Origin: Rouxiella badensis
Lineage (GTDB): Bacteria; Pseudomonadota; Gammaproteobacteria; Enterobacterales; Enterobacteriaceae
Reading direction: 5' to 3'
DNA: 41,610 nt
Assembly: GCF_002093665.1 (NCBI RefSeq)
Contig: NZ_MRWE01000043.1
Span: 1 to 41,610 of the forward strand
This document shows, piece by piece, positions 3,194 through 25,329 of this stretch; position 1 is the first letter of the stretch; every line of letters starts with the position of its first letter. Position numbers and translations under genes: made by a program. The notes under the pieces are model-generated. The model was not told the origin of the DNA, ran no database searches, and saw nothing but the letters and a program-made list of their open reading frames with translations.

Positions 3194-3411
3194 TAAAACA
3201 TCCCTTTTATGAATTTTAAGCGGGATTAACTTAGCCTTAATTCTTGAGAAAGCCTAACAAATTAGCGATTGATAGCAATTTTTGTCAAAGTAATGCGGGG
3301 GTAATGAGATTTGGCTTAGGTTTTTATTAATTAATCTTAAAACCCATTGCACGCTATAAGTTAAATTATTTAATTTCGAGCTTTGAAGTAATTTTTTAAA
3401 ATAAAAATAAC

Positions 3412-3451
3412 TACCCGTGAGTAAATAAATGCATTTTTACGGTCACGGGTA
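3412..3451 (-). terminator. Terminator of the leftward phage operon
   Basis: A perfect 9-bp inverted repeat (TACCCGTGA 3412-3420, TCACGGGTA 3443-3451) has a 22-nt loop. On the minus strand it is followed by GTTATTTTTATTTT. It lies just after the TraR-like gene and is the natural end of the leftward transcript from the repressor side. Confidence 0.6.
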
Positions 3452-3466
3452 AAATTTGGCTAGCAA

Positions 3467-3682
3467 TTAGCGTGATATTTTTCGATTTTTTATCGACCAG
3501 ACTTCTTTCTCGTGATCTTCTCTGCATTCGCAGCTGCAATAGCGGGTGCCATTAAGCGAGGGTTGCCCACAATCGCCGTTTTTACAAATCAGCGAAGGGG
3601 GGACAGGTTTGGCTCGGTTGGCGATTGCTGCGTTGAGGTGGTGTTCAAATTCTTCCATTGCTTGGTCGATGATATCAGCCAT
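3467..3682 (-). CDS. TraR/DksA-like zinc-finger protein
   Basis: The 71-residue protein starts MADIIDQA, the typical opening of phage TraR/DksA-type proteins (P2 Orf82 family). It carries a zinc-finger-like cysteine set in its C-terminal half: CKNGDC at about residues 35-40, then CSCEC near 50. TraR-type proteins bind in the RNA polymerase secondary channel and mimic ppGpp plus DksA, changing host promoter choice. The start at 3682 is chosen because AGGAGG lies 8 nt upstream. A longer in-frame ORF to 3760 has no such site. It overlaps the upstream gene by 8 bp, so the two are probably translated together. The cysteine spacing is not the classic C-X2-C-X17-C-X2-C, so zinc binding is an inference. 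Confidence 0.75.
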   Translation of the reverse strand: MADIIDQAMEEFEHHLNAAIANRAKPVPPSLICKNGDCGQPSLNGTRYCSCECREDHEKEVWSIKNRKISR

Positions 3683-3872
3683 TGTGCTGCCTCCTGGGTT
3701 GCTTGTTATATGCTGTCTCTTCCATTGCCTCGTCATAACCGCGTTGATAGATTTCATCAAAGATCTTTCTGATGTAATCGACGCGGGGCAGGCTCATCGT
3801 GTGTCTTCTCTTGATTGCCATACCGGCAATATCCTCAACGTATTCATCCATGTAATCATCGAATTTGCTCAT
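3675..3872 (-). CDS. Small phage protein of unknown function
   Basis: A 65-residue, highly charged protein (MSKFDDYMDEYVEDI...) with an acidic N-terminus and a basic, Gln/Arg-rich C-terminus. No membrane segment or known motif is seen. It lies 60 bp downstream of the 78-residue gene and overlaps the TraR-like gene by 8 bp, so it belongs to the leftward operon. Small ORFs of this type are common in the early regions of lambdoid and P2-like prophages. I cannot assign a function. Confidence 0.6.
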   Translation of the reverse strand: MSKFDDYMDEYVEDIAGMAIKRRHTMSLPRVDYIRKIFDEIYQRGYDEAMEETAYNKQPRRQHNG

Positions 3873-3932
3873 ACGAACCTCGATTCTAAAAGGGGATTAA
3901 GCCCCGTATTAACGAGGCCCGATGATGTTCTT

Positions 3933-4169
3933 TTATGATTTGCTCCTCTCGGCCAACATGGCATCAGCCAGGGCATAGGATGCCGTACTCAGATCGGCGT
4001 AACCGTTGGCCGCGCTGGCGCTACCTTCGGAAATAACCAATCCCAGCATGGCCTTCGCGGCCAGAAAATCGCGTAGGCTCATACCGTCTTGCGCGTAGTT
4101 ATGCTCCTCCAGCCAGTCGTCCTTGCTGTAAGGGCGGGGAAAGGCCTGACCACCGTTGTCCGTACTCAT
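3933..4169 (-). CDS. Conserved small phage protein
   Basis: The 78-residue protein has the pattern seen in many enterobacterial prophages: an N-terminal 'NGGQAFPRP' segment, then 'DGMSLRDFLAAKAMLGL' near residues 28-45, then an Ala-rich helix. The family is common in early left operons, but its role is not known to me. GATGGAAC precedes the ATG. Its neighbours are a RHH-independent set of small early genes with a TraR-like protein at the end, so it is probably co-transcribed from the repressor side. Confidence 0.7.
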   Translation of the reverse strand: MSTDNGGQAFPRPYSKDDWLEEHNYAQDGMSLRDFLAAKAMLGLVISEGSASAANGYADLSTASYALADAMLAERSKS

Positions 4170-4210
4170 AGTTCCATCCTCATCATTGTGTCGACGTAAA
4201 ATGTGGGCGT

Positions 4211-4278: not shown

Positions 4279-4545
4279 TTATTTGCGAGGCGAGACGGCA
4301 AATAGCGCGACCTGTGGCAGGCAAAGGTTATCGCCGCTTGGGTAGTAGCGCGTTTCACGAACCGACAGTGCCTTGTCCACCCGACTGATCGGCCTGCGTT
4401 TGCAGCTTAGCTCGACCCGACTTGGCCGCGCGGGTGTTACGTCCAGCTCTTTGCTGAAGTCATTGACCGCGAGCGTCTGTAAATGTTGGCGCGCTTCGCG
4501 ACGGCGCGTGGCAGCGGTTCCGTTAAAAGGCGTTCTGCGTGTCAT
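4279..4545 (-). CDS. Hypothetical phage protein, 88 residues
   Basis: A basic, Arg-rich protein starting MTRRTPFNGTAATRRREARQ. The start at 4545 is chosen because AGGAGA lies 7 nt upstream. The ORF stays open to 4623 but without a better site. Proteins with this opening occur in enterobacterial prophages, but I know no function. The positive charge would suit nucleic-acid binding, which is only a guess. It is the first gene of the leftward block after the repressor. Confidence 0.55.
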   Translation of the reverse strand: MTRRTPFNGTAATRRREARQHLQTLAVNDFSKELDVTPARPSRVELSCKRRPISRVDKALSVRETRYYPSGDNLCLPQVALFAVSPRK

Positions 4546-4853
4546 ACCTGTCTCCTGAATGTGGCGGGCACTATTTATCAATATGCCCAGGTTCAAGCGG
4601 GGTTTCATCGGCTTTTCAGCCACGTAGGTGCGTCAGGCACCGTTGTAAAGAGCGGGCAGCACAGGATTCTATAGTCGCGTTCTTCCAGGCCGGTTTGAAA
4701 ATAAATATTGAACTATTGGTACAAATTTCGCAAGAATTAAAAGTACATAATCTCATGAAAAATTCGTACTTTTGGTTTAAATTGTTGAGGGGTAAAGAGA
4801 TTTATTTCAAAAATATTTGATGTCATTGGTTGAACAAATAACGGGGGAGGAGG
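4546..4853. other. Intergenic region downstream of repressor
   Basis: About 300 bp without a convincing gene. It holds an inverted repeat AAAAGTAC (4739-4746) with GTACTTTT (4766-4773). Its GTAC core is the same as in the operator-like palindrome beside the repressor gene at 5660-5672, so it may be a second repressor site controlling the leftward genes. Confidence 0.4.
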
Positions 4854-4943
4854 ATGAAAATGAACGGCAGGTACAAAAACCCAGCAGCAAGGCTGGGTTT
4901 AGGCGGTATCGTTAATCTAATAGCGCGGATTATGGCAGTCTGA
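4854..4943 (+). CDS. Possible 29-residue peptide opposite the repressor terminator
   Basis: A very purine-rich run (GGGGGAGGAGG) precedes ATG at 4854 and a second ATG at 4860, which has the better spacing. The short frame encodes a peptide with a basic N-terminus (MNGRYKNPAARLG) and a hydrophobic end. It lies antisense to the repressor terminator and the last codons of the repressor gene, so it may be a coincidence. No family is recognised. Confidence 0.22.
   Translation: MKMNGRYKNPAARLGLGGIVNLIARIMAV
4875..4902 (-). terminator. Terminator of the repressor gene
   Basis: A stem AACCCAGC (4878-4885) with GCTGGGTT (4892-4899) is followed on the minus strand by TTTTTG. It lies about 30 bp after the repressor stop codon, so repressor transcription ends here. 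Confidence 0.7.
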
Positions 4944-5610
4944 ACTTAGTCTCGACGGCGACGCCAATGATGCGGCAATTGCCATTGATCGGAACCATCG
5001 GCCAGGCGGGATTTAACCCCTTAAGGTATTTCTGGTTACCGTCTATCACTAACTTCTTGAACGTCGCTTCGTTGGCATCGGTCAGTTTGGCGATCACTAG
5101 TTTGCCGTTGGTGGCCTCTTTGCCGGTGTCAAACAGGACAAAGGTCCCTTCAGGAATGCTGAGCCCCATGGGGGCGGTCATCGAGTCACCGTCAACCAGT
5201 AACCAAAATCCCTCGCCCTGAATATGCGCGTCAGACTCAAGCCATTGGTCGATATCTTTTAGGCTATAAGCCTCAATGGCTTCGTTCCAGGCACCGGCCT
5301 GGACCTTGCTTATCACCGGATATTGGGTACCTCGGGTGTAAGGCCTTGGGTTGGACACGTTGCTGCCTTCACCGGTGATGATTCCCAGCTGCAGCCAGAC
5401 GGGGTCAACCTTGAGAAACTTGGCCAGCTCTGCCATGACGGCAGGGCGCGGCAACGATTCTGCGTTTAACCACTTGCTCACGCCTTTTGAAGACAAACCT
5501 GTCGCGCGGGATAAGGCTATCCCACGTCCATGTTCATCAAGCCCAGCGTCTTTACAGGCCTGCGCCAGCCTCTGAGCAAATTCTTCACGCAGTTTTTCAG
5601 TTTGAACCAT
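4930..5610 (-). CDS. CI/LexA-type phage repressor (S24 autopeptidase)
   Basis: The 226-residue protein has an N-terminal helix-turn-helix (about residues 28-70, including LSRATGLSSKGVSKWLN) and a C-terminal S24 peptidase domain. The features needed for RecA-stimulated self-cleavage are visible: the Ala105-Gly106 pair in VQAGAW, the nucleophile Ser143 in GDSM, and the general base Lys185 in ATFKKL. Repressors of this type keep a prophage or tailocin silent and are inactivated after DNA damage. It is divergent from the rightward early genes, with an operator-like palindrome between them, and has its own terminator. Its length and plan are normal for lambdoid repressors. No recognisable Cro lies opposite. 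Confidence 0.92.
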   Translation of the reverse strand: MVQTEKLREEFAQRLAQACKDAGLDEHGRGIALSRATGLSSKGVSKWLNAESLPRPAVMAELAKFLKVDPVWLQLGIITGEGSNVSNPRPYTRGTQYPVISKVQAGAWNEAIEAYSLKDIDQWLESDAHIQGEGFWLLVDGDSMTAPMGLSIPEGTFVLFDTGKEATNGKLVIAKLTDANEATFKKLVIDGNQKYLKGLNPAWPMVPINGNCRIIGVAVETKFRLP

Positions 5611-5637
5611 GAGTACGATAGTAAACCACTTGCAAAG

Positions 5638-5672
5638 ACTTTCAGTTCAATAATAATATGTACTGAAAGTAC
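5638..5672. promoter_or_regulatory. Operator-like repeats next to the repressor gene
   Basis: ACTTTCAGT (5638-5646) and ACTGAAAGT (5662-5670) form a 9-bp inverted repeat. The second arm is also the centre of a shorter palindrome, GTACT-GAA-AGTAC (5660-5672). A further CTTTCAG follows at 5685-5691. The repeats lie just upstream of the repressor start and are the best candidates for its operators. Confidence 0.5.
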
Positions 5673-5742
5673 GAAAAGGAAGGGCTTTCAGCGTTTAATT
5701 ACAAAACTGCTTAGCCACCGAAGACATCTTGCTCTTTTCACA

Positions 5743-5925: not shown

Positions 5926-5935
5926 GGGGCGCCTT

Positions 5936-6106: not shown

Positions 6107-6301
6107 ATGGACATCAACGTAAAAACAATTCCCGACCTTCTGGTATCGACCAGAGGTAATCAGGCTCAACTGGCGAGGATCCTGGGCGTTAGTCGTCTAA
6201 CTCTCAAGAAATATGTTAATGACCGAAAGGCTGAGGAACATGCCGTGATTAATGGCGTTCTGATGACCATCAGTCAGAGGGACAAGGTAAAAAAGTTATA
6301 A
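6107..6301 (+). CDS. ninH: NinH-like Fis-type DNA-binding protein
   Basis: The 64-residue protein follows lambda NinH over most of its length. The opening INVKTIPDLLV matches FSVKTIPDMLV, followed by a GNQ-(x)-ARxL helix-turn-helix and a conserved KYVxDRK/H-A-VxN-VLM segment. NinH is a Fis-like DNA-binding protein of the lambda nin region, between replication genes and the late regulator Q. AAGGAG lies 8 nt before the ATG. Here it is upstream of the DUF1133/Q-like gene, as expected for its position. It may help bend DNA or regulate early genes, but the lambda protein itself has no firm function. Its stop codon overlaps the start of the next gene. Confidence 0.8.
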   Translation: MDINVKTIPDLLVSTRGNQAQLARILGVSRLTLKKYVNDRKAEEHAVINGVLMTISQRDKVKKL

Positions 6302-6609
6302 AGCGGGAATACACCACCGGCGACATCAAGAAGATTAAAGAGATGGCCGGTCAGTATTCTCCGCAGGAAATTGCAGACACTCTGAACAGAACCAAAGCCG
6401 CATTGATGGCTTTCGCAAGCCGCAACGGCATCTATTTTAGCCGCGGACCTAACAATCAGCACACTCAGGCGTCGGTCAACGAGGTAGTCAGACTCAAGGG
6501 CGAGGGCAAGTCCTATCGGCAGATTGTGGCCATCACCGGGATACCGATTTCAACCTGTGCGTATTGGTGTCGGAGGCAGCATGAAGCGAAGCTGGTTTCT
6601 ACACGATAA
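6298..6609 (+). CDS. Phage HTH protein with no normal start codon
   Basis: The frame encodes a 103-residue protein with two helix-turn-helix-like units: YSPQEIADTLNRTKAALMAF (about residues 18-37) and GKSYRQIVAITGIPISTCAYW near the end. The first helix begins before the first in-frame ATG (6343), so that ATG would cut into the domain. Upstream the frame begins ATA-AAG-CGG at 6298, overlapping the ninH stop codon as TTATAA. The usual arrangement would be ATGA, so a G-to-A change may have turned ATG into ATA. Translation may use ATA through coupling with ninH, or a short form from 6343. A weak AAGG lies upstream. The function is probably DNA binding. Confidence 0.6.
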   Translation: MKREYTTGDIKKIKEMAGQYSPQEIADTLNRTKAALMAFASRNGIYFSRGPNNQHTQASVNEVVRLKGEGKSYRQIVAITGIPISTCAYWCRRQHEAKLVSTR

Positions 6610-6787: not shown

Positions 6788-6897
6788 TGCAGTGATTCAG
6801 CGTTCTCGGTTGTCACCTCTTACAGATAAAGAAGGAGTCGGAAAGGCTCCTCAATCTCAAGGCATTAACTAAAAATTTAGAATATTTGGGGAAATAT

Positions 6898-7515
6898 ATG
6901 AGAAAGCAAGATGCACTTTATACCTTACCTATGGTGTTAAAACAGGCGGATCTGCGCCGCGTTTGGTGTCGCGGCCGTAGAACTATTACGCCTGCGCAAC
7001 GGGTATGGACGCGCTATATGCTGTCTCTATGGGGTAAACATCTCGGCGGCGATGATGCACCGACCGGCTGTGTCAGCGTGATTGGCAGACTGATGATCCG
7101 CTCTGAATGGAGCCAGGATCAGTCGGAGAGAATCATTAAGGTCGTTGAAGGTCTTTATAAAGAAGGGCTTCGCGGCGAGGAGCTGTTCAGGCGATCGCGT
7201 CAAATCGTGGTACCTGGCGCATCGATAAGCAATATTCTTGCCTCGGCCAAAGAAGAGGATGACGCCGCTTTCGTGGAGTCGGTCATGCACAAAGAGATTA
7301 AGCGCGACAGTCCGATTCGTTCCGTGGCCATCAAACGTTACTGTGAACGGCGAACTGTGCAAAATATCGCCAAAGATATCAACTACCACACCGGGTTTAA
7401 CGTTCAGGCGGGTAGAAAGCGGGTGACATGGTGCGAAGAGATACTTGAAGAAGAGATGTTTTTTGCGATGAAACGCACAATAGAGAACACTGATACCCCT
7501 AATGTGGCCTATTAA
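6898..7515 (+). CDS. DUF1133-like protein in the antiterminator Q position
   Basis: The 205-residue basic protein resembles phage DUF1133-type proteins, with the conserved opening KQDALYTLPMVLKQADLRRVWCRG and the segment 'TPAQRVWTRYMLSLWGKHLGGDDAP'. Such proteins lie just before the lysis genes, where lambda has antiterminator Q. Q-type proteins load onto RNA polymerase at the late promoter and let it ignore terminators. Here a strong promoter, a leader with two terminators and the holin follow at once, which fits that role. The ATG at 6898 is chosen because GGGGA lies about 5 nt upstream. An upstream TTG (6886) would overlap that site. The family name is from memory and the antiterminator role is an inference. 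Confidence 0.7.
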   Translation: MRKQDALYTLPMVLKQADLRRVWCRGRRTITPAQRVWTRYMLSLWGKHLGGDDAPTGCVSVIGRLMIRSEWSQDQSERIIKVVEGLYKEGLRGEELFRRSRQIVVPGASISNILASAKEEDDAAFVESVMHKEIKRDSPIRSVAIKRYCERRTVQNIAKDINYHTGFNVQAGRKRVTWCEEILEEEMFFAMKRTIENTDTPNVAY

Positions 7516-7878: not shown

Positions 7879-8133
7879 ATGAAGATGAATCAAAATAGTG
7901 ACGGATTCTGGACACACTACTGGGCTTCGGTAACGGCAATCGCCAGCGCCGCTGGACTGACTACTGAACAGTGGATCTACATATTCTGCGCAATCTTTGG
8001 TGCGCTTCTGTCGCTCGGTTCATATCTGGGCAATCGACGTGCTCTCAGTGCCCGGCAGGACGAAGAGGAAAAGAGAACGGAAATTCTTCGCACTTATCTT
8101 TCATCTAGAAAAGATAATTCTGCCGCGCAATAA
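7879..8133 (+). CDS. Holin (class II-like)
   Basis: The 84-residue protein has one clear membrane segment, IYIFCAIFGALLSLGSYL (about residues 33-50), and a weaker one before it, WASVTAIASAAG. It ends in a charged, Arg/Glu-rich cytoplasmic tail. This is the plan of class II holins such as phage 21 S. Holins oligomerise in the inner membrane and at a set time permeabilise it, ending the lytic cycle or releasing particles. GGAGG lies 6 nt before the ATG at 7879. The ORF also stays open from 7864. It is the first gene after the late promoter and leader. No endolysin or spanin gene follows. Confidence 0.75.
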   Translation: MKMNQNSDGFWTHYWASVTAIASAAGLTTEQWIYIFCAIFGALLSLGSYLGNRRALSARQDEEEKRTEILRTYLSSRKDNSAAQ

Positions 8134-8285
8134 CGCCTGCGACCTCGAGAGCGATTGACGCCTCGACGAGCAGACTTTTCCCTCTGTTTTATCACCGGTG
8201 ACATTAACCCGCGTTTATGTCATCTCCCGCGCCGAGCTTCACGCTACCCAATGGCGCATCACCGTTATGCAGGCACCTACGTGAT
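8134..8285 (+). other. Non-coding joint between holin and tail genes
   Basis: Only about 150 bp lie between the holin and the first tail gene, where relatives carry endolysin, spanins and usually head genes. The stretch has no ribosome binding site or complete gene. Two overlapping frames are open (from 8155 and 8217), as expected for a recent deletion scar. Confidence 0.45.
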
Positions 8286-9080
8286 ATGGCCGATCCCTCA
8301 GAAATACTCAATGTTATTGCGGCTCAGGTGGCCGCAATTGTTTATCCCAACGGTACGGGCTCGCCCAGTGTTACCGGCACAGTAGTCAGTATTTACGCTG
8401 GCTGGCCCGTTCACAGCGTGCTCGACACCGATATCCAGGCCGGGATAACGCATATTTCGGTGTATCCGATGGAAGGCGAGCAAAAAATTCCCACCGCGCT
8501 AGGGCGGCCTTATCGCGCGGTAGACTGCGGAGATCCGTCGGTTATCGCAACGGTAAGCGGCACCGCCGTCACGCTATCAGGTACCGTTTCAACCCCTCAG
8601 AACCTCTACTTTCTGGTCGATGGCAGCGGTTATCATTATTCCGTGCAATCGGGTGACACACTAACGTCGATTGCGACAGCAATAACAACGCTTATTCCGA
8701 ACGCCAGCAACGTCGAGGAGGTTATCAGCCTACCTCAGGCGACGCAGATAGTGGCCAGAGTGGGGGGCGTCGGTACCGAGGCGCGGGAGCTGCGCAGGCA
8801 AGCCAAAGAGTACCGCATAACCGTCTGGGCTCCGACGAGGCTGCTGCGCGATACCCTCGGTGGAGCGCTGGATGAAGGATTGTCGATTAACAGCAGTTTA
8901 CAGCTCTTGGACAACCTGCCGGCTTTCATGATTTATGCACGCTCAATGTATTCCCAAAACACCCAAATCTACCGGCGTGACATGGTTTTTTCTGTGAACT
9001 ATGCCACCTCGCAAACTCTCTCGGCGCCGCAGGTTGTGGCACCGGTTATGAGCATCAACGACCACACCCAAACCCTCTAA
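8286..9080 (+). CDS. Tail-associated protein, probably tail completion/neck
   Basis: A 264-residue protein of a type found upstream of the sheath gene in several myophages. It opens MADPSEILNVIAAQVAAIVYPNGTGSP, has a conserved 'VSVYP'-type strand, a beta-rich middle, and the segment RQAKEYRITVWAP, which may contact other tail parts. There is no signal peptide. The start at 8286 is preferred because the recognisable domain begins there. An ATG at 8217 is in frame, and neither has a good ribosome binding site. By position it could be the tail terminator or completion protein that caps the tail where the head would attach. That would matter in a headless particle. Function is an inference from position. 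Confidence 0.55.
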   Translation: MADPSEILNVIAAQVAAIVYPNGTGSPSVTGTVVSIYAGWPVHSVLDTDIQAGITHISVYPMEGEQKIPTALGRPYRAVDCGDPSVIATVSGTAVTLSGTVSTPQNLYFLVDGSGYHYSVQSGDTLTSIATAITTLIPNASNVEEVISLPQATQIVARVGGVGTEARELRRQAKEYRITVWAPTRLLRDTLGGALDEGLSINSSLQLLDNLPAFMIYARSMYSQNTQIYRRDMVFSVNYATSQTLSAPQVVAPVMSINDHTQTL

Positions 9081-9096
9081 ATCATCAGGAGTAATC

Positions 9097-9318
9097 ATGG
9101 CAGATACCGATGACGTTAACGCGTCAGGCTCTACTGCGTCCGTAAGCGCAGATTCATCCTCGGCAGCGGCAGCGGCGGCGGCGTCCCTCGGCTTTATCTT
9201 GGTCACCCGCATTGCGTTTGCCGATTATCAGGTTGGCGACGAGATTACCGATGAGGATGAAATCAACGACATCCTCGCTGGCGAACTCGCCGTTTACGTG
9301 ATTAAACGCGCCGCATAA
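9097..9318 (+). CDS. Small tail protein upstream of sheath (Mu gp38 position)
   Basis: A 73-residue protein with a Ser/Ala-rich N-terminal half, including a run of alanines (about residues 23-31), and an acidic end. AGGAG lies 6 nt before the ATG. In Mu-like phages a small protein (gp38/DUF2635) has the same place just before the sheath gene. I see no strong sequence match, so the link rests on size and position. It is probably a minor tail assembly component translated with the sheath. Confidence 0.55.
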   Translation: MADTDDVNASGSTASVSADSSSAAAAAAASLGFILVTRIAFADYQVGDEITDEDEINDILAGELAVYVIKRAA

Positions 9319-9375
9319 TCCCCTTTATTCAACATCAGAGCCCGCCTGAAGTGGGTCTTTCATTTGGAGATAGCC

Positions 9376-10932
9376 ATGCCGATTTATCAAGCTGGCAGTT
9401 TGAACACCTCTGCGCTGACCGCGCCAGACTTATACGTCCAGGTTGTTGCACCCCAGACACAGTACATTAATGGCGTTGCGACCGACGGCCTCGGATTGGT
9501 CGGTATCGCAAGCTGGGGTCCGGTCAACAGCCCGTTCCAGATTAGTTCGGCAAGCGATCAGGCCCTGTACATCGGCAGTCAGCAGAACCGCAAATATGAC
9601 CTTGCGACGGCGGTTGCCATTTCTCTGCAACTCGGTGCGACCAACCTGAACTGCGTGCGCGTCACCGACGGCACCGACATTGCCGCCAGCGTTGCTTTAA
9701 AGGATGTGGCAAGCAGTCCGGCGACGGGGGTAACCTTGACCGCAATTTACAGTGGTACCACCGGTAACAGCATCCAGGCGATGATTACCGCAGGTTCGGC
9801 GGTTAGCTCTTACAAGTTGACTATTTATCTGCCGGGCCAAACCGCCGAAGTGTTCGACAACATTACCGGCAACGGTGCGACCTTCTGGACAAATCTGGTA
9901 AATGCGGTCAATAACGGACAAACCAGCGTACGCGGCGCAAGTCAACTGGCTATCGCGACCGTTGGTACCAGCAGCGCCTTGCCAAATGTAACGGCCACTT
10001 ACAGCCTGACGGGCGGCACCGACGGCGCTGCCAGCATTACTGATGCCGCGCTGGTCGGCTCCGACGGCACCAGTACTACCCGTAAAGGGATGTACGCTCT
10101 GCGTGGCACCAATTCGCAGGTCATCAACCTAGTGGGCCTCACTACCTCCACGCTGTGGCCGACGGTGAATACGTTTGCCGCCAGCGAAGGTTCTTATGCC
10201 GTCTCGCAGTTTAGCGCCGGCACTACCTATGTCTCGGCGGCAGCGCTGCTCAACACGGCAGGGGTAGACAGCTGGAACTTCAAGGCGATGGTCGGTGACT
10301 GGGTGTACTGGCTGGACAGCGTTAACGGATTGACCCGCATGGTTGAACCGGCAACCTTCGAGGCCGCCAATATTGCCGCGCGCAGTCCATCAATCTCTAC
10401 GCTGAACAAAGCAATCAGCACTATCGTATCAACCCAGCGCAACCTGGCGAACCAGCCTTACTCGCTGTCTGAAATCGGGGCTATCAACTCGGCGCGTCTC
10501 GACGTCATTACCAACCCATGTCCGGGCGGCAACTACTTTGGTATCCGCTCCGGCCGTAACACCAGCTCGACCGCCAGCCAGAACGACGACACCTATACCC
10601 GCATGACCAACTACCTGTCATTAACTCTGGCAGCCAGTTTTGGCGGCGTAGTGGGGCAAAATCAGACCGCAGACCTGCGTCGCGAGACGAAAAGCACCAT
10701 TGAGGCGTTTCTGCAAAACCTTGACGATCAGGGCATGATCGGCGATCCGAACGGTGCTGCCTCCTTCGCAGTTACCCTGGACTCGACCAACAATCCGGAT
10801 TCTCAGGTTGCACTCGGCTACATGCAGGCCGACGTCGCGGTCAAGTATCTGAACGTCGTACGTTATTTCCTGATTAACCTCGAAGGCGGCGGCAGCGTCA
10901 CCATCACGGTTTCTAACTCAGCGTCTAACTAA
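9376..10932 (+). CDS. Contractile tail sheath protein
   Basis: A 518-residue protein with features of myophage tail sheaths (Mu gpL family). The N-terminal region is IGxASWGPVNSPFQI-like, typical of sheath subunits that overlap their neighbours. A large Ser/Thr/Gly-rich insertion lies in the middle. The C-terminal domain ends with the conserved 'DVAVKYLNVVRYFLINLEGGG' type segment that links sheath rings. The sheath surrounds the tube and shortens on contact with the target, driving the tube through the envelope. GGAG lies 6 nt before the ATG at 9376. An upstream TTG at 9364 is an alternative. An intrinsic terminator follows directly. The intact sheath excludes an F-type (non-contractile) particle. 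Confidence 0.9.
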   Translation: MPIYQAGSLNTSALTAPDLYVQVVAPQTQYINGVATDGLGLVGIASWGPVNSPFQISSASDQALYIGSQQNRKYDLATAVAISLQLGATNLNCVRVTDGTDIAASVALKDVASSPATGVTLTAIYSGTTGNSIQAMITAGSAVSSYKLTIYLPGQTAEVFDNITGNGATFWTNLVNAVNNGQTSVRGASQLAIATVGTSSALPNVTATYSLTGGTDGAASITDAALVGSDGTSTTRKGMYALRGTNSQVINLVGLTTSTLWPTVNTFAASEGSYAVSQFSAGTTYVSAAALLNTAGVDSWNFKAMVGDWVYWLDSVNGLTRMVEPATFEAANIAARSPSISTLNKAISTIVSTQRNLANQPYSLSEIGAINSARLDVITNPCPGGNYFGIRSGRNTSSTASQNDDTYTRMTNYLSLTLAASFGGVVGQNQTADLRRETKSTIEAFLQNLDDQGMIGDPNGAASFAVTLDSTNNPDSQVALGYMQADVAVKYLNVVRYFLINLEGGGSVTITVSNSASN

Positions 10933-10943
10933 TCACCCTCAAG

Positions 10944-10966
10944 ACCCGCCACGGCGGGTTTTCTCT
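10944..10966 (+). terminator. Terminator between sheath and tube genes
   Basis: ACCCGCC (10944-10950) and GGCGGGT (10953-10959) form a very GC-rich stem followed by TTTTCTC. It lies inside the tail operon, so late transcription must either be antiterminated or drop here to set the sheath-to-rest ratio. Confidence 0.65.
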
Positions 10967-10979
10967 CTGGAGCAAGACT

Positions 10980-11411: not shown

Positions 11412-11424
11412 TTGAGAGAAAGAA

Positions 11425-11981: not shown

Positions 11982-12035
11982 TGGAATCGGCTAATTTACC
12001 GGTAAAGCGGCTGACTCCTCGACCTGCATTTCAAT

Positions 12036-12066
12036 AACCCCGGCCCACATGCTGGGGTTTTTCATT
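12036..12066 (+). terminator. Terminator before the tape-measure gene
   Basis: AACCCCGGC and GCTGGGGTT pair over 9 bp (one G-T pair) around a 6-nt loop, then TTTCATTTTTT. This strong intrinsic terminator lies within the tail operon, 20 bp before the tape-measure start. Confidence 0.8.
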
Positions 12067-12085
12067 TTTTAACAAGAGGTTGTCT

Positions 12086-14155: not shown

Positions 14156-14165
14156 CGGAGTTTTT

Positions 14166-15212: not shown

Positions 15213-15214
15213 CT

Positions 15215-16902: not shown

Positions 16903-16913
16903 GCGGGAAACCC

Positions 16914-17279: not shown

Positions 17280-17283
17280 TCCC

Positions 17284-18411
17284 GTGGCTCTCAATATAAA
17301 AACATTCGCAACGCTGGTTAGCGATCAGGTGACCGCTTTACAGGGCGCCGCCGCCGGGCTGGTGGATACCGCTATCGGCAGCATTCTTCGCTCCATCTTG
17401 GAATCCAACTCGGCGGTGGCGATATGGATACAGCAACTTATCGTGAATCTTCTGGTCACCACTCGGGCGGCAACCAGCTCTGGCGATGACCTCGACAGTT
17501 GGATGGCCGATTTCAGTTTCACTCGTCTTGCGGCCACTGCGGCAACCGGGCAGGTGGTTTTCAGCCGCTTTACGGCGACTAATCAGGCGGTGATTCCCGT
17601 GGGCACTCAGGTGTCGACCACCGACGGCTCACAGGCTTATTTGGTCACCACCGATACCACCAATGCCGCGTATGACCCGACGCTGGCCGGCTACCTGATA
17701 GCCGCTGGCGTCACTTCAGTGCGCGTGCCGGTACAGGCGGTGACGGCAGGGGCGGCGGGGAATGCGCTGGAAGGTACGATCACCGTGATCTCCGGCTCCG
17801 TTCAGTACGTCGATACCGTCACTAACCCGGTGACCTTTGGCACTGGTGAGGACGCCGAGTCTGACACCGATTTTCGCGCCCGCTTCGTGCTGTGGATAGC
17901 CTCACTCTCTAAATCTACGCTGTCTGCAATCGGCTACGCGCTGTCGAGTATGCAAAACGGTGTGACCTACACCCTGACCGAAAATCAGACTTACAGTGGC
18001 CTGTCCCAGCCTGGCTATTTTTATGCCGTGGTGGACGACGGAAGCGGTGCCCCGTCAAGTACATTTCTGGGGCAGGCATACAGCGCTATCGATGCGGTGA
18101 GGGGGTTTACGGTCACGTTTGGGGTTTTTGCACCGGCACGGGTGACGGCAAACATCGCCATGACGATTACCTTGAGTGCGCCCGCCGTGCGCGCCGAGGT
18201 GGTCGCGTTGGTGGATGCCGCGCTAGAGGCTTACGTTGCCGGATTAGCGCTGGGTCAAACGCTTCCCTTCACCCAACTTGCCACCATTGCCTACGGCGCA
18301 AGCCCGTATGTGACCAACGTTACCGGTGTCATGCTGAACGGAAGTTTGGCCGATGACTTAACAGCAACCGCCAGTCAGGTTATCCGCGCTGGCACAATTT
18401 CGGTGAGCTAA
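17284..18411 (+). CDS. Baseplate wedge protein (gpJ / Mu gp47-like)
   Basis: The 375-residue protein has the baseplate J domain, with segments such as DTAIGSILRSILESNSAVAIWIQQL near the N-terminus and FGTGEDAESDTDFRARFVLWIASLSKSTLSAI in the middle, the hallmark of P2 gpJ and T4 gp6. Two copies of each family protein form the wedge heterotrimer with gp53-like and tail protein I. It starts at GTG, 4 bp after the gp25-like gene, so translation is coupled. Its stop is followed at once by the ATG of the next gene. Confidence 0.87.
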   Translation: MALNIKTFATLVSDQVTALQGAAAGLVDTAIGSILRSILESNSAVAIWIQQLIVNLLVTTRAATSSGDDLDSWMADFSFTRLAATAATGQVVFSRFTATNQAVIPVGTQVSTTDGSQAYLVTTDTTNAAYDPTLAGYLIAAGVTSVRVPVQAVTAGAAGNALEGTITVISGSVQYVDTVTNPVTFGTGEDAESDTDFRARFVLWIASLSKSTLSAIGYALSSMQNGVTYTLTENQTYSGLSQPGYFYAVVDDGSGAPSSTFLGQAYSAIDAVRGFTVTFGVFAPARVTANIAMTITLSAPAVRAEVVALVDAALEAYVAGLALGQTLPFTQLATIAYGASPYVTNVTGVMLNGSLADDLTATASQVIRAGTISVS

Positions 18412-19155
18412 ATGGCGACTGGCGACTCTCAAGATATGTTAGGCCGCCTCAAGGCGCTCATTCCGCCGACGTGGTACGGGGACGACAACCCGATAAGAGA
18501 CGCGATCCTGACCGGCTGTGCATCGGCGCTTTCCTGGTGTTACTCGCTTTACCTGTACGCCAAACTGCAGACTCGAATCAATACGGCGACTGACGGCTGG
18601 CTTGATATCGCGGCCTATGATTTTTTCGGTAAAAATCTGCCCCGTTCTGCAGGCCAGTCTGACGATCTTTTTCGCAACACTATTCGCACCAACCTGTTTC
18701 GCGAACGCGGAACGCGCCAGTCTATCATCAAGGTCCTCGAGGATTTGACCGGCAAAACGCCCGATATTTTCGAACCCTCGCGACCTCAGGATACCGGTGC
18801 CTATAGGGGAGCGAGTCTCGGTTATGGACTGGCGGGCGGATACGGTTCGATTTTGATTCCCTATCAGGCGTTTGTTACCGCGTATCGGCCAGACGGCGCA
18901 GGTATCCCCTTTGTTGCGGGTTACAGCGCGGTCTCGGCTGGATACAGCGATGCCTCACGCGGTGAGTATGCTTCGACGGGAATGATTAGCGGCCTGATAA
19001 CCGATACGCAGATTTACGAGGCGATCGCCTCGGTAAAAATGGAAGGCACGCTGGTGTGGGTCAAAATACTCTCACACCGTGCCGACGATTACTCACAACT
19101 AGGGATAGACTTTATTACCGGTGAGTCATCACTGCTCGAGTATGCGCAATGGTAG
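18412..19155 (+). CDS. Baseplate wedge / tail protein I (Mu gp48-like)
   Basis: A 247-residue protein that directly follows gpJ, where P2 has gpI and Mu has gp48. The N-terminal half has PPTWYGDDNPIRDAILTGCASALSWCYSLYLYAK, including the conserved 'DGWLDIAAYDFFG' segment. The C-terminal part is Gly/Tyr-rich and probably contacts the fibres. Wedge proteins of this position join the baseplate to the receptor-binding proteins. ATG follows directly on the stop of gpJ. The next gene (tailspike) starts 57 bp later. Confidence 0.75.
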   Translation: MATGDSQDMLGRLKALIPPTWYGDDNPIRDAILTGCASALSWCYSLYLYAKLQTRINTATDGWLDIAAYDFFGKNLPRSAGQSDDLFRNTIRTNLFRERGTRQSIIKVLEDLTGKTPDIFEPSRPQDTGAYRGASLGYGLAGGYGSILIPYQAFVTAYRPDGAGIPFVAGYSAVSAGYSDASRGEYASTGMISGLITDTQIYEAIASVKMEGTLVWVKILSHRADDYSQLGIDFITGESSLLEYAQW

Positions 19156-19212
19156 CGCCTCCGGTCGTAACACCTTCCCTGAATACCTCTTTCCTTCCAT
19201 TGGAGAAGCACA

Positions 19213-21129
19213 ATGGCATTTATTGATGGTCAACTTCTTACTGCGGCTCAATTAAACGATTTAGCCAACAAGTCCGACCTGGACTCGGCAATCGAAGCCA
19301 AGATTGATGAGATAAACGGCTATAACCTAAGCGCCGCCCAGTCGGCAGACGCGGCGGCCTCGAACAGTGCCTCTGCACAAAGCGCGGTGGCACTTGCCCA
19401 ACAGGCCGCGGCCGAGGCGCTGGCCGCAGAGGACGTATTGAGAAGCGAACTGGCGGCACCGGCCGGAGCCGGCCTTTCAGGCTACCAGATAGGCCAGACG
19501 TATGGGGCTAATACCGTCGGAACAAAGCTCAATCGCAGAATCGACATTGAGGATTTTGCCGATGAAAACTCGGAAGCCGGAGACTGGACAATCGCCATTC
19601 AGGCGGCCATAAACCAGTCACTAATTGATGGCAGCGACGTCTACGGACGGGGTAACTACACCATTTCGAATACGCTGAAAATTGCCGGTTTTGCTTCCCA
19701 GGGATTAAATTTATACCTCAATTCATTGAGCGTTAACTCGGCATTCCCGAAATGCGATAGCTTCTGGGACAGCCCAACGCCGATGATCCTAATTGGTGAT
19801 GGCGGCGCAAACGTCACGGGATTAAATATCACCATCGGTACTTTGCACGGCGGTATTTATAATGCTTCAAGCGGTGACATTGAATATATTGCCGACGGTA
19901 TTAAACCTAACGGCAATGGTTTTGCCCTGTCACATTTTCACATTGGATACGCGCTTTACTGTTACGCCGTTATTCGTACTGGTGACCAGCTTACGCCGAA
20001 TGCCTCGATGTGGATTACCGGAGATTTCTGGACGCAAAACTATCTTGGCGTATTGATGAAAACCGGTACGGGCAGCGGTGCGCCGATCGTCGAAGGGTGG
20101 AAGTTCTTCGTTAAATTTATCGCCGCCAACAACTATGGCGGTATCTGGTTCCTCAACTCCGGGCAATACGCTCAGGTGAACGGAGACTTTGACTTCAATG
20201 GCGGCTGGCTGGGCATTCTGCATCTTTCTGATACCACTTACGTCAGCGAGCTGGTCGGAAATGCCGGTGAAATGCTGACTGACGGCACGACTCAACTGGC
20301 CTTTATGGCTCACTACACTTATCAGGGATCAAATTACGTCATCGTGGCTGCCGATCGGCCTATGTCAGACTACGGTGGCGGCACAGGAACCTTTCCATGG
20401 GCTGCGGGAAGCACGATCACCAGCGTAAAAGCCAGTGATATCGCCATTAAGTTCGACAAAGCGATGCTTGCGGGAGACAACGCGTCATCTAACAACTTCA
20501 TCGATATCATCCACGATTTCCAGTACACCGCGTTCGGTAAAATTCAGGTAGTAGCTGGTTATCTGGCGGGTGTTTATGGTGGGTTACTTCACAGCTCGGT
20601 ATTTCTTTACCAGAACTCGTTCGACGGCGTTACCCAAATCGTTGACGGCATGGCGGTAAGCAACTCCGGAACGACGCTGTCCTTTTATAACAAAACGGTA
20701 TCCGATTCACCTTACTCCAACATAACCGCTGACTTCGTCAACTTCGAGAAAAGGCTTTATCTCAAAGATCATACAACAATCGGCATCAACACCTATATTG
20801 CCGTTCCTCGCGCCACCAGTGCGGATGACTTCACGACTATTCTGCCGCTTACAGATACCTCCACGGATAAATACGGTGAGGAAGGTTCTAAGTGGCACGT
20901 CGAGATAATCTCTAACTACTCCGGCTGTGGCGGTTCACACGACGTCTACATATGGGGAGTCGGAAATGCCAGGGTGACTAACCAGCAGCAGCTCGGCTAT
21001 GCCTACGAATGGCGCTATATGCAACAGGCGAATGCGGACGGTACGGCGATTAGTGGCATCAACCTGCAAATCCGCCAGGATTCGCAGGACGTGATTAAAT
21101 TTTCAGTCAATATGACGAGGATAGGATAA
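19213..21129 (+). CDS. Tailspike / receptor-binding protein with beta-helix-like body
   Basis: A 638-residue protein. The N-terminal 90 residues are an Ala/Ser/Gln-rich helix, typical of trimeric coiled-coil adaptors (LSAAQSADAAASNSASAQS). Then comes DFADENSEAGDWTIAIQAAINQSL, the beginning of the pectate-lyase-like beta-helix found in tailspikes, followed by long repetitive beta-strands. Tailspikes bind and often cut surface polysaccharide. I see no catalytic residues that I can assign. It could be a depolymerase or a passive receptor binder. GGAG lies 7 nt upstream, and it overlaps the next gene by 1 base. Its position after tail protein I is that of the first receptor-binding protein. Confidence 0.72.
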   Translation: MAFIDGQLLTAAQLNDLANKSDLDSAIEAKIDEINGYNLSAAQSADAAASNSASAQSAVALAQQAAAEALAAEDVLRSELAAPAGAGLSGYQIGQTYGANTVGTKLNRRIDIEDFADENSEAGDWTIAIQAAINQSLIDGSDVYGRGNYTISNTLKIAGFASQGLNLYLNSLSVNSAFPKCDSFWDSPTPMILIGDGGANVTGLNITIGTLHGGIYNASSGDIEYIADGIKPNGNGFALSHFHIGYALYCYAVIRTGDQLTPNASMWITGDFWTQNYLGVLMKTGTGSGAPIVEGWKFFVKFIAANNYGGIWFLNSGQYAQVNGDFDFNGGWLGILHLSDTTYVSELVGNAGEMLTDGTTQLAFMAHYTYQGSNYVIVAADRPMSDYGGGTGTFPWAAGSTITSVKASDIAIKFDKAMLAGDNASSNNFIDIIHDFQYTAFGKIQVVAGYLAGVYGGLLHSSVFLYQNSFDGVTQIVDGMAVSNSGTTLSFYNKTVSDSPYSNITADFVNFEKRLYLKDHTTIGINTYIAVPRATSADDFTTILPLTDTSTDKYGEEGSKWHVEIISNYSGCGGSHDVYIWGVGNARVTNQQQLGYAYEWRYMQQANADGTAISGINLQIRQDSQDVIKFSVNMTRIG

Positions 21130-21584
21130 TGGCAGATACAGTGACTCCCACCATTGCGGCATCGTCGAAAGACGTTTTTAATGCTAGCGGTACTGCGACC
21201 AGCACAACCACTTTGCAATCAATCTACCAGGTTCCTGTCTATGTTAATGTCCCGATGCTTAATGCCATGGGCGTTGAAATCAACGGAGGTGATTATGCTC
21301 CGATCTGGGATATGCTCAGCATCGGTGGGCGAATTACCCAGGACCCTAATGCGGATCAAAAGGTGGGGCCGGGCGTTCTTGCCGAGATGACTATTTCAGC
21401 CATAGATACGACCATTGATACCTCGGGCGAAACCGCCGCTGTTAAAGCGATTTATGCCAATCAGAAAATTATAGCCGATAATTTAACGGCAATCGTTCAG
21501 GCTATTAATGCCCACCGTGATAATTATTCTATTCTCCTTCAATATATGATCAACTATAAATTATTGAATCCTGCATCCTCTTAA
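21129..21584 (+). CDS. Small structural protein between tailspike and fibres
   Basis: The 151-residue protein has a Thr/Ser-rich N-terminus, then a middle beta region (VPVYVNVPMLNAMGVEINGG) and a C-terminal helical part. Its ATG overlaps the tailspike stop (TAATG), which suggests coupled translation. The position between tailspike and fibre genes suggests an adaptor or accessory fibre part. I recognise no family. It has no cysteines and no signal peptide, as for structural tail proteins. Confidence 0.6.
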   Translation: MADTVTPTIAASSKDVFNASGTATSTTTLQSIYQVPVYVNVPMLNAMGVEINGGDYAPIWDMLSIGGRITQDPNADQKVGPGVLAEMTISAIDTTIDTSGETAAVKAIYANQKIIADNLTAIVQAINAHRDNYSILLQYMINYKLLNPASS

Positions 21585-21599: not shown

Positions 21600-22028
21600 A
21601 TGGCTTTAACCGGTTCCATCACCATTAATTCCCAAAGCTTGCCAGATGCCTATGTCGTCGTGAGCTCAATTACCTTAGAGGGAACAATGGCGCAAGCAAT
21701 GTTTTCGCTTTATGCCACAGTAGGGGCATATATAGCGGGCGCATTACCTATTATCACTTACCCTGGCTATATTCCTTACTCAATGAGTCAGGTCCCTTTA
21801 GATGTGGTAGAAACCTCTACCTATGTAGCAGGGTTATTCCCCGGTTTTACGCGCGTGACAACCGCCGATAAGACTTCAGTGAGTAGCGTAACCACTGACA
21901 GAGCAGCAATTCTGGCTGCTGCGCAAGCCTCGGCAGCTGCGGCAACCAGCAGTTCAGCGTCAACGTCTACCGCAACGAATACGGCAACGAGTGATACCTC
22001 AGGCACCACAGTGAGTGCATCCAGTTAA
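21600..22028 (+). CDS. Small accessory tail protein, Ser/Ala/Thr-rich end
   Basis: A 142-residue protein with a beta-rich first 100 residues and a low-complexity tail of Ser, Ala and Thr (about residues 105-142). AAGGAG lies 8 nt before the ATG. It lies in the AT-rich part of the tail operon, which has a lower GC content than the baseplate genes, so it may have come in separately with the neighbouring fibre gene. I recognise no family. Confidence 0.55.
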   Translation: MALTGSITINSQSLPDAYVVVSSITLEGTMAQAMFSLYATVGAYIAGALPIITYPGYIPYSMSQVPLDVVETSTYVAGLFPGFTRVTTADKTSVSSVTTDRAAILAAAQASAAAATSSSASTSTATNTATSDTSGTTVSASS

Positions 22029-22109: not shown

Positions 22110-23720
22110 ATGGATCGTCAAATTGTCTATCCTGGTGCAATTCCGCTTGAAACAGATTTGTTAAATACTAATAAATATGCCCTGATAGGTTTGGCTAAAC
22201 TCTCAGCATCAATTATGGGGGAGGCTACCTATCTCAGAGGTCTGGAATGTACGCCAACCAATCCGGCCTCAATGACAATAAATATTGCAAAAGGTGAAAT
22301 ATATAGCCTGCAAAACACTGATGGAACGGCATATTCATCCCTCGCGGCAGATACCACTAATTCTATTCTAAAGCAGGGTATTATTCTTTCCTCTACCGCA
22401 TTGACTTTATCGGCACCGACTGTTGCGGGTCAGTCGATTAATTATTTAGTTCAGGTGGCTTACAGCGATAAGGATTCTGGGGCTACAGTCCTACCTTATT
22501 ACAACACTACGGATCCGACGGCTGCCTATAGTGGGCCAGCAGGGTCAAGTGCGACGCAAAATACGGTCAGGTCAGGCATTTGCACCGTAGGTTTGAAGCA
22601 GGGTGTCGCGGCGGTGACGGGGACTCAGTCCACGCCCGCGGCAGATGAAGGATACACTGCCGCTTGGGTTATTACCGTGGTGCAAGGTGCTACGGCGATT
22701 ACTGCTGCCAACATCGGCGTTTCGCCAAACGCGCCGTTCCTTCCGGCCAACGGCCTGGTTGATGGAGGGCAGAAAAAGACCCTGACGCACGCCGTCGATT
22801 TCGGCTCGACCAATGCCTATGCGGCCAACTACATGCCTGCCATCACCTCGTTAACCGACGGCATGGAGCTTACCTTCAAGGCAAAGACCAGCAATACGTC
22901 CAGTGCAAAACTTGCGGTTAATTCTCATTCCGCCTTTCCGTTGTTAAATATCGCTGGCGCAACGCTGAGCGGAGGGGAAATCCTCTCCGGCGGTTTCGCC
23001 ACCGTGAAGTGGAATGCGGGTCTGAGTGCATGGATGCTTATCAATTCGACAGGCGTAGGTGCCGCTCTGACTAACCTCGGACTGGGGTCTACAACCCTTA
23101 AAGGCGGCCTGGTGGGTACGCCTAGAATCTTCACGGCCAGCGCGACCTACACGCCAACACCGGGAACCCGACTGGTCAAACTTACGCTGACTGGCGGTGG
23201 CGGCGGTGGCGCGGGCGCAAAAGCTACGGCAACCTCACAGTCCTTCTCCGGCGGCGGCGGCGGCGCTGGCGCAACCGTGATTGCCTACTTCACGCTGACG
23301 GGCGTGAGTACGTATGCCATTACGGTCGGCGCAGGAGGCGCGGGGGCTAGCAATACGTCTGCCACTTCTGGCGGAATCACTTCATTTGCCGGTTTATATA
23401 CGGCCGCGGGTGGGCAGGGGGCACAGTTTGGGTCCGCGACTAGCGCAGCAGGAGGCGCGGGCGGTACAGCATCCGGCGGCCTGATCAACATTAATGGCGG
23501 ATATGGCAGTGACGGTCAGTCTGGAACTTTCCTGTTAACCGGAAGCGGCGGCAACTCTTACTGGGGCGGAGGCGGGCGTGCAGCTAACGCCACCGCGGGC
23601 GTTACCGGAATGGCCTATGGTTCAGGTGGTGGCGGTGTTTATGATAGCGGCTTAACCGGGACTGCCTTCACCGGAGGTGCGGGCAAGTCTGGCATCGCCG
23701 TCATTGAAGAATACGCGTAA
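22110..23720 (+). CDS. Tail fibre 1 with glycine-rich tip
   Basis: The 536-residue protein opens MDRQIVYPGAIPLETDLL, a common baseplate-attachment segment. The first 310 residues are similar to tail fibre 2. The C-terminal 190 residues are dominated by Gly-rich runs (GGGGGGAGA near 345, later GGGGGAGAT, GAGGAG) separated by short beta strands. Such polyglycine-sandwich tips resemble phage fibre adhesins that recognise LPS or outer-membrane proteins. GGAG lies 7 nt upstream. Base composition changes inside the gene, AT-rich in the first 500 bp and GC-rich after, which suggests a mosaic join. It stops just before tail fibre 2. Confidence 0.82.
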   Translation: MDRQIVYPGAIPLETDLLNTNKYALIGLAKLSASIMGEATYLRGLECTPTNPASMTINIAKGEIYSLQNTDGTAYSSLAADTTNSILKQGIILSSTALTLSAPTVAGQSINYLVQVAYSDKDSGATVLPYYNTTDPTAAYSGPAGSSATQNTVRSGICTVGLKQGVAAVTGTQSTPAADEGYTAAWVITVVQGATAITAANIGVSPNAPFLPANGLVDGGQKKTLTHAVDFGSTNAYAANYMPAITSLTDGMELTFKAKTSNTSSAKLAVNSHSAFPLLNIAGATLSGGEILSGGFATVKWNAGLSAWMLINSTGVGAALTNLGLGSTTLKGGLVGTPRIFTASATYTPTPGTRLVKLTLTGGGGGGAGAKATATSQSFSGGGGGAGATVIAYFTLTGVSTYAITVGAGGAGASNTSATSGGITSFAGLYTAAGGQGAQFGSATSAAGGAGGTASGGLININGGYGSDGQSGTFLLTGSGGNSYWGGGGRAANATAGVTGMAYGSGGGGVYDSGLTGTAFTGGAGKSGIAVIEEYA

Positions 23721-23760
23721 AGGCTACTGCGATTTATCAATAATAAAATTGGAGAACTCA

Positions 23761-25053
23761 ATGGATCGCCAGATAGTTTATCCAGGCGCAGTTCCGCTTG
23801 ATACCGATCTGCTTCACACCAATAAGTATGCCATGATTGGCCTCGCCAAACTCTCGGCAGCACTTATGGGAGCGTCGACTTACCTTCGTGGTCTGGAATG
23901 TACGCCCACCACGCCGACCTCAATGACAGTCAATGTGGCGAAGGGCGAAATCTACAGCCTGCAAAATGTTGATGGAACGGCCTACTCCTCACTCGAAGCC
24001 GACACCAGTAATACTATTTTAAAACAAGGCCTTCTTCTTTCCTCTACGTCGTTCACGCTGGCCGCACCGTCAGGCAACGGGCAATCGATAAATTATCTTC
24101 TGCAGGTCGCCTACAGTGACAGCGATTCAGGGGCAACGGTATTACCTTACTACAATGCCGCCAACCCGGCTGTCGCCTACAGTGGGCCAGGAGGCAACGG
24201 GGCGGCGCAAAATACGGTCAGGGCCGGGCTATGTAGCGTCGCGCTTAAGACCGGTGTTGCTGCGACGACCGGCACCCAAACAACACCAGCAGCAGATACC
24301 GGATATACAGCAGCATGGGTCATTACCGTGGCTCAGGGCACCACAACACTGACTGCCGCCAATATTTCGGCGACGGCGACGGCGCCATTCCTGCCAGCGT
24401 CGGGTCTGATAGCCGCTCTACAGCAATGCACCATGACCTATGCAATTGATAAGGGCGCGGCGAATGTTTACACCGCCTCCTTTACTCCAGCGTTGCCCAC
24501 GCTGGTGGACGGGATGCGCTTGACTTTCAAGGCGAAAACCGCCAACACCGCCAGTTCTACCTTTGCGGCAAATGGTGGTACAGCCTACCCGATTTATTCG
24601 CAGCTTCACTTGGCCTTGCAGGGAGGGGAGATAGTCGCCAACGGACTTATCGAAATCGAATGGAATAGCTCGTTAAATGCCTGGATACTTTGTGGCAATA
24701 GCGGCGGGGCGTTGCCGGTAGTTGCGGGCACGAAATCAAACCATGCGGTTAACCTTGGACAATTCACCAGCGGGACAGGCTCAACAAAATTACCTGATGG
24801 GACTATTATTAACTGGGGGCGAGGCACAGGTGTTACGACATCTGCAGGAGTGAGTATTTCGTTCCAAATCCCATTCTCAAACTCGTCGTCTTATTCCGTA
24901 TCGGGCCAATCAGCATCGGGTCCAGGCTCAGTAAGCTGTATTCACGCCAGCTCATTCACTGCAAATGGCTGTAATATTTCGGTCACTACCTCCAATGGAA
25001 GCTCTACTGTTTATTGGGCTGATCCCTTCACCTGGATTGCCATTGGCCGCTAG
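23761..25053 (+). CDS. Tail fibre 2, paralogue of fibre 1
   Basis: The 430-residue protein repeats the N-terminal 310 residues of fibre 1 (MDRQIVYPGAVPLDTDLLHTNKYAMIG...) with about 70 per cent identity by eye. It has a completely different C-terminal end (LPDGTIINWGRGTGVTT...FTWIAIGR). That end resembles the tip domain of phage side tail fibres. Two tandem fibres with shared attachment parts but different tips would let the particle bind two receptors, or compete for the same baseplate site. GGAG lies 6 nt before ATG 23761. A longer ORF from 23677 overlaps fibre 1 and is rejected. No fibre-assembly chaperone (Tfa) follows. An intrinsic terminator does. Confidence 0.82.
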   Translation: MDRQIVYPGAVPLDTDLLHTNKYAMIGLAKLSAALMGASTYLRGLECTPTTPTSMTVNVAKGEIYSLQNVDGTAYSSLEADTSNTILKQGLLLSSTSFTLAAPSGNGQSINYLLQVAYSDSDSGATVLPYYNAANPAVAYSGPGGNGAAQNTVRAGLCSVALKTGVAATTGTQTTPAADTGYTAAWVITVAQGTTTLTAANISATATAPFLPASGLIAALQQCTMTYAIDKGAANVYTASFTPALPTLVDGMRLTFKAKTANTASSTFAANGGTAYPIYSQLHLALQGGEIVANGLIEIEWNSSLNAWILCGNSGGALPVVAGTKSNHAVNLGQFTSGTGSTKLPDGTIINWGRGTGVTTSAGVSISFQIPFSNSSSYSVSGQSASGPGSVSCIHASSFTANGCNISVTTSNGSSTVYWADPFTWIAIGR

Positions 25054-25060
25054 TTTGATG

Positions 25061-25091
25061 AAGAGCCCTCACTCGGGGGTTCTTTGCTTTT
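25061..25091 (+). terminator. Terminator of the tail operon
   Basis: AAGAGCCC (25061-25068) and GGGTTCTT (25077-25084) form an 8-bp stem followed by TGCTTTT. It lies directly after the last tail fibre gene. Confidence 0.65.
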
Positions 25092-25264
25092 CATTCCTCC
25101 TCATTCAGCGCGTACTCCCTGCAAATTTGCCGCATAAATTCTCCCTTTCTGACTTACTTCCCGATTTTTATACTCCGATATCAGAATTTTATTTACATCT
25201 TTTCAAAGACAGTGCTGTTGAAGCCTAATACTCAGACCCCATTGAGCGGTCATCAGGCATGAAT

Positions 25265-25297
25265 AAAAAAACCCACCGGAAGGTGGGTTTTTATTTT
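25265..25297. terminator. Bidirectional terminator at right edge of the element
   Basis: A perfect stem (AAACCCACC/GGTGGGTTT, 25269-25290) with a GGAA loop has A-tracts on the left and TTTTATTTT on the right. It separates the tail operon from the leftward gene at 25330-25521. Confidence 0.85.
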
Positions 25298-25329
25298 ATA
25301 CATAAACTTAATGATGTAGAGACAGGTTG

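Follow-up and report, generated by a model that had tools for sequence, protein, structure and literature searches.

The stretch of DNA analysed here (the window) is the whole of contig C42, 41,610 bases long, from a 4.78 Mb genome (G000), and it carries a headless contractile tail at positions 3467-25053. From the sequence analysis, we put the probability at roughly 0.87 that this cluster is an R-type tailocin going back to a single domestication of a temperate myophage resembling phiKX1; its probable role is that of a weapon puncturing competitor bacteria. The evidence comprises the gene content, the absence of a head-neck-endolysin block, a single headless clade, a conserved chromosomal site, purifying selection and exchange of the tailspike. 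Literature searches for tailocins in Rouxiella found no publication, and in the searches made no tie of the phiKX1-like phage group to tailocins was found; the cluster would add an independent tailocin origin. The closeness of a headed sister phage (sheath 90%) makes the cut from phage to weapon readable gene by gene, and a tail weapon lacking its own endolysin raises the question of how it leaves the cell.

The tail genes are all present, open and in order between 8286 and 25053 on the plus strand, as judged from open reading frames (ORFs) and from Pfam and PHROG scans, in agreement with the original prediction that every part of a contractile tail is encoded and intact. The first is the tail terminator (8286-9080; phrog_13532), whose reading frame opens at 8217 and whose start was placed at 8286 as in relatives. 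This protein is a homologue of k530 of phiKX1, and its predicted model is of moderate quality (pLDDT 75, pTM 0.53). Foldseek comparison of the model with the PDB gave matches to the phage 812 neck and the P1 tail at E<0.001 and to the diffocin collar, the eCIS cap, lambda gpU, T5 p142 and T4 gp15 at E values of 0.001-0.01. Because the model matches neck and tail-terminator structures, the cluster appears to begin at the tail's own cap. A small conserved protein with no function assigned (9097-9318; 48-82% in relatives) is followed by the tail sheath (9364-10932; phrog_23, 1.8e-36) and the tail tube (10980-11411; 92% in the related genomes G003, Serratia sp. M24T3, and G004), the latter called from phrog_12993, a family without a function name, and from its position between sheath and chaperone. 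The tail assembly chaperone consists of a zero-frame product (11425-11802; PHROG scan) and a -1 frame extension following AAAAAAC (11793-11981), which is conserved in phages. This slippery heptamer abuts the TAG stop of the chaperone, the -1 frame is open to 11981, and the heptamer is also present in G004 and in the loci L077 and L002, all of which bears out the frameshift that had been proposed.

The tape measure (12080-14155; 691 aa) was assigned by position and has no Pfam or PHROG match. It is succeeded by a baseplate/tail protein (14166-15212; phrog_21362), the baseplate hub (15215-16309; phrog_52), a spike with a gpV-like OB domain (16306-16902), a gp25-like wedge or sheath initiator (16914-17279) and a baseplate J-like (gpJ-like) wedge (17284-18411), the last three recognised by Pfam/PHROG, and by a gpI-like wedge (18412-19155; phrog_26379, with a phrog_7378 baseplate match at 1.7e-8). 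The tailspike (19213-21129; PHROG) has its first ~61 residues in common with M24T3, where the remainder is replaced; its predicted structure, with a mean pLDDT of 46, was set aside. Two tailspike-linked proteins with no function assigned and no Pfam or PHROG match come next (21129-21584, 65% in G004 and absent from M24T3; 21600-22028, 83% over 101 aa in G004), and the series ends with tail fibre 1 (22110-23720; Pfam/PHROG) and tail fibre 2, which has a gp53-like C-terminal domain (23677-25053; PF21882).

Pfam and PHROG scans of the window's ORFs recognised no head, packaging, replication or integrase genes. Hidden Markov models (HMMs) for TerS, three types of TerL, two portal and two capsid types, scaffold, connector, neck and endolysin matched no window ORF of at least 40 aa; the head, neck, connector and endolysin models do match headed relatives. 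The three TerL models were kept separate, a mixed alignment having joined two unlike terminase types. In these searches the window and the M24T3 and G004 loci match only k530. The gap opens behind the holin and closes precisely where the tail terminator begins, and the series TerS-TerL-portal-capsid-neck that stands before the terminator in an intact phiKX1-like phage is missing from the window. Scans and models thus agree with the earlier statement that terminase, portal, capsid, replication and integrase genes are lacking.

Heads might instead come from a helper, so that a tail-only, satellite-like element would give DNA-carrying particles. Head genes elsewhere in the genome, which the original prediction had named as counting against it should they supply packaged particles, do exist but are of an unrelated type: on contig C36 lies a separate prophage (L053:2110-18799) that has a lysozyme, a repressor and a large terminase subunit of the lambda type (phrog_15), and G004 likewise has a lambda-type terminase prophage (L056). 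Against completion by a helper, the neck and connector genes fitting this tail are missing from the cluster, no integrase was recognised, the portal family was found in 0 of 1 own genome (control 5 of 14), and the three capsid types of headed relatives were unmatched there, two of these searches being without a positive control. The PF03354 terminase also scored 0 of 1 in the own genome, which says little, since the terminase on C36 is of the lambda type. We regard helper-supplied heads as very improbable.

The same tail genes occur in headed phages of Pantoea, Phytobacter, Aquitalea, Pseudomonas and Komagataeibacter, the last being phiKX1, the subject of PMC8566455. Its annotated order is TerS, TerL, portal, minor structural protein, coat, small genes, k520, k530, a small gene and sheath. 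Comparison of the Pantoea and Phytobacter seeds with PHROGs named the small and large terminase subunits, portal, scaffold, major head protein and endolysin; 'connector' (k480) and 'neck' (k520) are named by position because their PHROG families have no function name. phiKX1 and its relatives share with the window the order of tail genes from the terminator to the gpI-like protein, with sheath identities to the window of 41% (phiKX1) to 90% (L077), but differ in that their terminator is preceded by TerS, TerL, portal, capsid, connector and neck. In some relatives (nine viral contigs and L009) an endolysin lies upstream of TerS. A megablast of window positions 8000-19300 against E. coli genomes gave no match.

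Relatives on genome contigs comprised 16 loci, of which 14 were assessed after leaving out L001 (M24T3, headless) and L015 (too short upstream). All 14, each with enough upstream sequence, have a connector or neck gene; 13 also gave a recognised terminase, portal or capsid, the other (L013) having the neck only. For viral contigs we took the best 80 of 138 confirmed relatives, 69 of which have at least 2.5 kb upstream; k530 was found in 69/69 of these, k520 in 66/69 and a head HMM match in 63/69. Three of the six contigs with no head match have k520 (L097, L098 and L107), and the ORFs of L097 and L107 resemble, by eye, the head set of L077. The others (L075, L076 and L080) are without k520. 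As L075 comes from the genome of the window itself (100% over 19,777 bases) and the identities of L080 all equal those of M24T3, L076, a metagenome contig whose upstream sequence spans only 4.5 kb, is the sole extra headless member among these viral contigs. IMG/VR lists the window's own cluster (L075) as a viral contig despite the absence of head genes, so virus collections can take in headless tail clusters as phages.

In a tree built on seven to eight concatenated tail proteins of 50 loci, a single clade (SH-aLRT 100) unites the window, M24T3, G004 and L076, and its sister is the headed phage L077 (IMGVR_UViG_3300009500_000019). The headless sample is small, consisting of these four distinct loci, two of them 99% alike. 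L077 carries TerS-, TerL-, portal-, protease- and capsid-like genes before its neck and terminator. Its head set differs from that of most relatives with the same tail, the capsid-like gene belonging to phrog_13692, which has no function name; heads and tails are thus swapped as modules in this phage group. Our best reading is that the tailocin arose here by a separate domestication event. Tape measures are 620, 628, 690 and 691 aa long in the four distinct headless loci and 645-820 aa in 61 headed loci, with 817 aa in L077; seven of the 61 headed phages have one of the window's length (691 aa) or shorter. The tail is probably a shorter one, though the length ranges overlap.

The right flank of the cluster is ordinary chromosome, with genes for LysR, SDR, dsbB, fadR, spoVR, MFS, AraC-type, DAO, alanine racemase and NAD synthase proteins. 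Sheath and cluster are present in three of the six genomes of the genus, namely that of the window, M24T3 and G004. In M24T3 and G004 the same headless cluster lies between ycgN and dsbB; this interval holds other genes and no tail genes in G001 and G005, and part of it was read in G002. In the window's own genome ycgN lies at the beginning of contig C32, whose first 17 bases are the reverse complement of the window's first 17. The site had been described as lying between cspA and the dsbB-fadR block; the placement is better described, from the C32 edge and the two related genomes, as the ycgN-dsbB interval. Conserved headless synteny in related genomes, a check set beforehand, was found in M24T3 and G004 at the same site and with open structural genes, and this, with the single headless clade within headed phages, supports the proposal of a domesticated headless tail.

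When aligned with their M24T3 and G004 counterparts, the tail genes gave dN/dS values of 0.03-0.24 at dS of about 0.4-3; Q (in one of the comparisons), fibre 2 and one of the tailspike-linked genes gave a dS that was saturated or undefined. The dN/dS values for dsbB, fadR and spoVR were 0.01-0.06. By this measure the tail genes are under purifying selection. Between M24T3 and G004 the terminator, sheath, tube, chaperone, hub, spike and wedges are 98-100% identical, the tape measure is 83% and fibre 2 59% identical, and the tailspike aligns over 73 residues only and is then replaced, the receptor-binding protein being more variable than the structural genes. The M24T3 tailspike has further matches, one to a tailspike family and one to an EPS depolymerase family. 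Transposase genes interrupt the second fibre gene in G004 (L029:4555-7414).

These comparisons bear on whether the cluster is a defective prophage remnant, decaying and of no present function. Its missing lysis enzyme, the insertion-split second fibre of G004 and the presence of a holin and Q, which are common prophage leftovers, would suit decay. Many disrupted tail genes in close relatives had been listed in advance as a sign against domestication; M24T3 has none, and G004 has only the split fibre 2, its structural genes being open. The tail genes are otherwise all open in the window and both relatives, the low dN/dS was obtained at large dS, the frameshift site is retained, and the headless loci form a single clade whose gene order was kept through speciation. 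Decay is given a small chance, and a tailocin maintained by selection is preferred.

A lambda-like switch, made up of an S24 repressor and N-like and Q-like antiterminators, precedes the tail operon together with a holin. On the minus strand are three small early genes, one for a DksA-like zinc finger (3467-3760; phrog_54; 68% in M24T3 and G004) and two with no function assigned and no Pfam match (3675-3872, 60%, and 3933-4169, 71%, in the same genomes), an N-like antiterminator (4279-4623; phrog_271; 74-76% in G004 and M24T3) and a CI-type repressor in which domain scans found an S24 (LexA/CI) self-cleavage peptidase domain (4930-5610; dN/dS 0.03). Candidate repressor operators lie at 5629-5700, with RCTTTCAGY at 5638 (+), 5662 (-) and 5684 (+); M24T3 and G004 each have one exact copy beside a near copy. 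Upstream of the N-like gene, inverted half-sites AAAGTAC/GTACTTT (4736-4772) resemble, by eye, the operator ends near the repressor and are possibly a second operator. The plus strand encodes a NinH-like protein (6107-6301; PF06322), a small HTH protein (6343-6609; Pfam/PHROG scans), for which no homologue was found in M24T3 or G004, a Q-like late antiterminator (6886-7515; phrog_753; 79-81% in both) and the holin (7882-8133; phrog_1350; 84-86% in both). A CI-type repressor and a late switch do remain, as had been noted. The S24 domain and the candidate operators at the tail cluster may reflect SOS-type control, a proposal that leans on the domain and on a self-cleavage motif that the repressor presumably carries.

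The original prediction mentioned neither the holin nor the lack of a linked endolysin or spanin. Neither an HMM search for endolysin nor scans of the window's ORFs found an endolysin or spanin in the cluster, and the linked endolysin is the one feature, among the sequence tests of tailocin status, that the cluster lacks. Two phage lysozymes occur elsewhere in the genome, one in the C36 prophage and one in a stand-alone locus on contig C8 (L052:131-5102). The C8 locus is of the Q-holin-lysozyme-Rz-like kind, with Big_1 Ig-domain proteins, in the order Q (PF06530), Ig-domain protein, holin, lysozyme, small Rz-like protein and Ig-tailspike protein, adjoining FUSC genes. Its holin is 74% identical to that of the tailocin, its Rz-like protein has no Pfam match and is named by position, and the remainder of its terminal Ig-domain protein shares 41% identity with the tailspike of the window.

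The lysis locus is present in five of the six genomes of the genus (L052, L054, L055, L072 and L073), including all three tailocin carriers; G001 has neither it nor the tailocin. A divergent S24 repressor was seen with it in four (G002, M24T3, G004 and G005). The Ig-tailspike fusion occurs in G000, G002 and G005, its tip matching the tailocin tailspike at 41-45%, and was not seen in the lysis loci of M24T3 and G004. As G002 and G005 carry the locus and no tailocin, we rejected it as a strict tailocin partner and consider it independent. Operators shared by the tailocin and the C8 locus were sought and not found, the latter having CTAAGTTAACTTAG-type palindromes. Hypothetically, the C8 locus could supply the missing cell-wall enzyme in trans. 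That the two form a two-locus tailocin, in which a holin-only operon is released through an unlinked, separately repressed Q-holin-endolysin-spanin locus and the tip homologue of the C8 Ig-protein is a store of new tips, seems doubtful.

We infer SOS control, particle formation, lysis and killing along the following lines. DNA damage would lead to RecA-stimulated self-cleavage of the S24 repressor, after which the N-like and then the Q-like antiterminator would turn on the late genes as one long operon. On the tape measure a short contractile tail would be built, with the terminator as its cap, and this tail would leave the cell when the holin disrupts the membrane and a cell-wall enzyme encoded outside the cluster acts with it. 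The tailspike and fibres would attach to sugars on the surface of related bacteria, which contraction of the tail would depolarise.

A headless contractile tail in what we take to be an insect- and plant-associated group also calls to mind the extracellular contractile injection systems (eCIS) of the Afp/PVC type, which deliver toxins into eukaryotic cells. The AAA+ ATPase and effector genes of those systems have no recognised counterpart in the cluster by Pfam and PHROG scans, the cluster has a phage-type switch, holin, tailspike and fibres, and its nearest relatives are headed phages; an eCIS is extremely improbable.

The R-type tailocins include the R-pyocins, carotovoricin and the Mu-type tailocin of P. 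syringae, and in them a linked lysis cassette of holin and endolysin is usual, though not strictly defining; the window has the holin only. The sheath query matched 6 of 392 sampled genomes of the family, and its best PDB matches were 8bky (6.7e-11) and 8bl4 (1.4e-9), none at E<=1 being named pyocin; as far as tested, this upholds the view that the cluster is not one of the classical named tailocins. The unlinked holin-endolysin locus on C8 resembles type 10 secretion and phage-like lysis cassettes, as far as these are described in PMC10101115, but lies outside the tail cluster and differs from the tailocin in repressor and operators. That tailocins have many origins from different phages is a view already published (PMC12090994). 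In comparison with the R-type tailocins, drawn partly from that source, the window's cluster differs in having no linked endolysin or spanin, a different phage ancestor and lambda-like N/Q control, and is like them in its headless contractile tail, phage-type control, holin, exchangeable receptor-binding protein and fixed chromosomal site.
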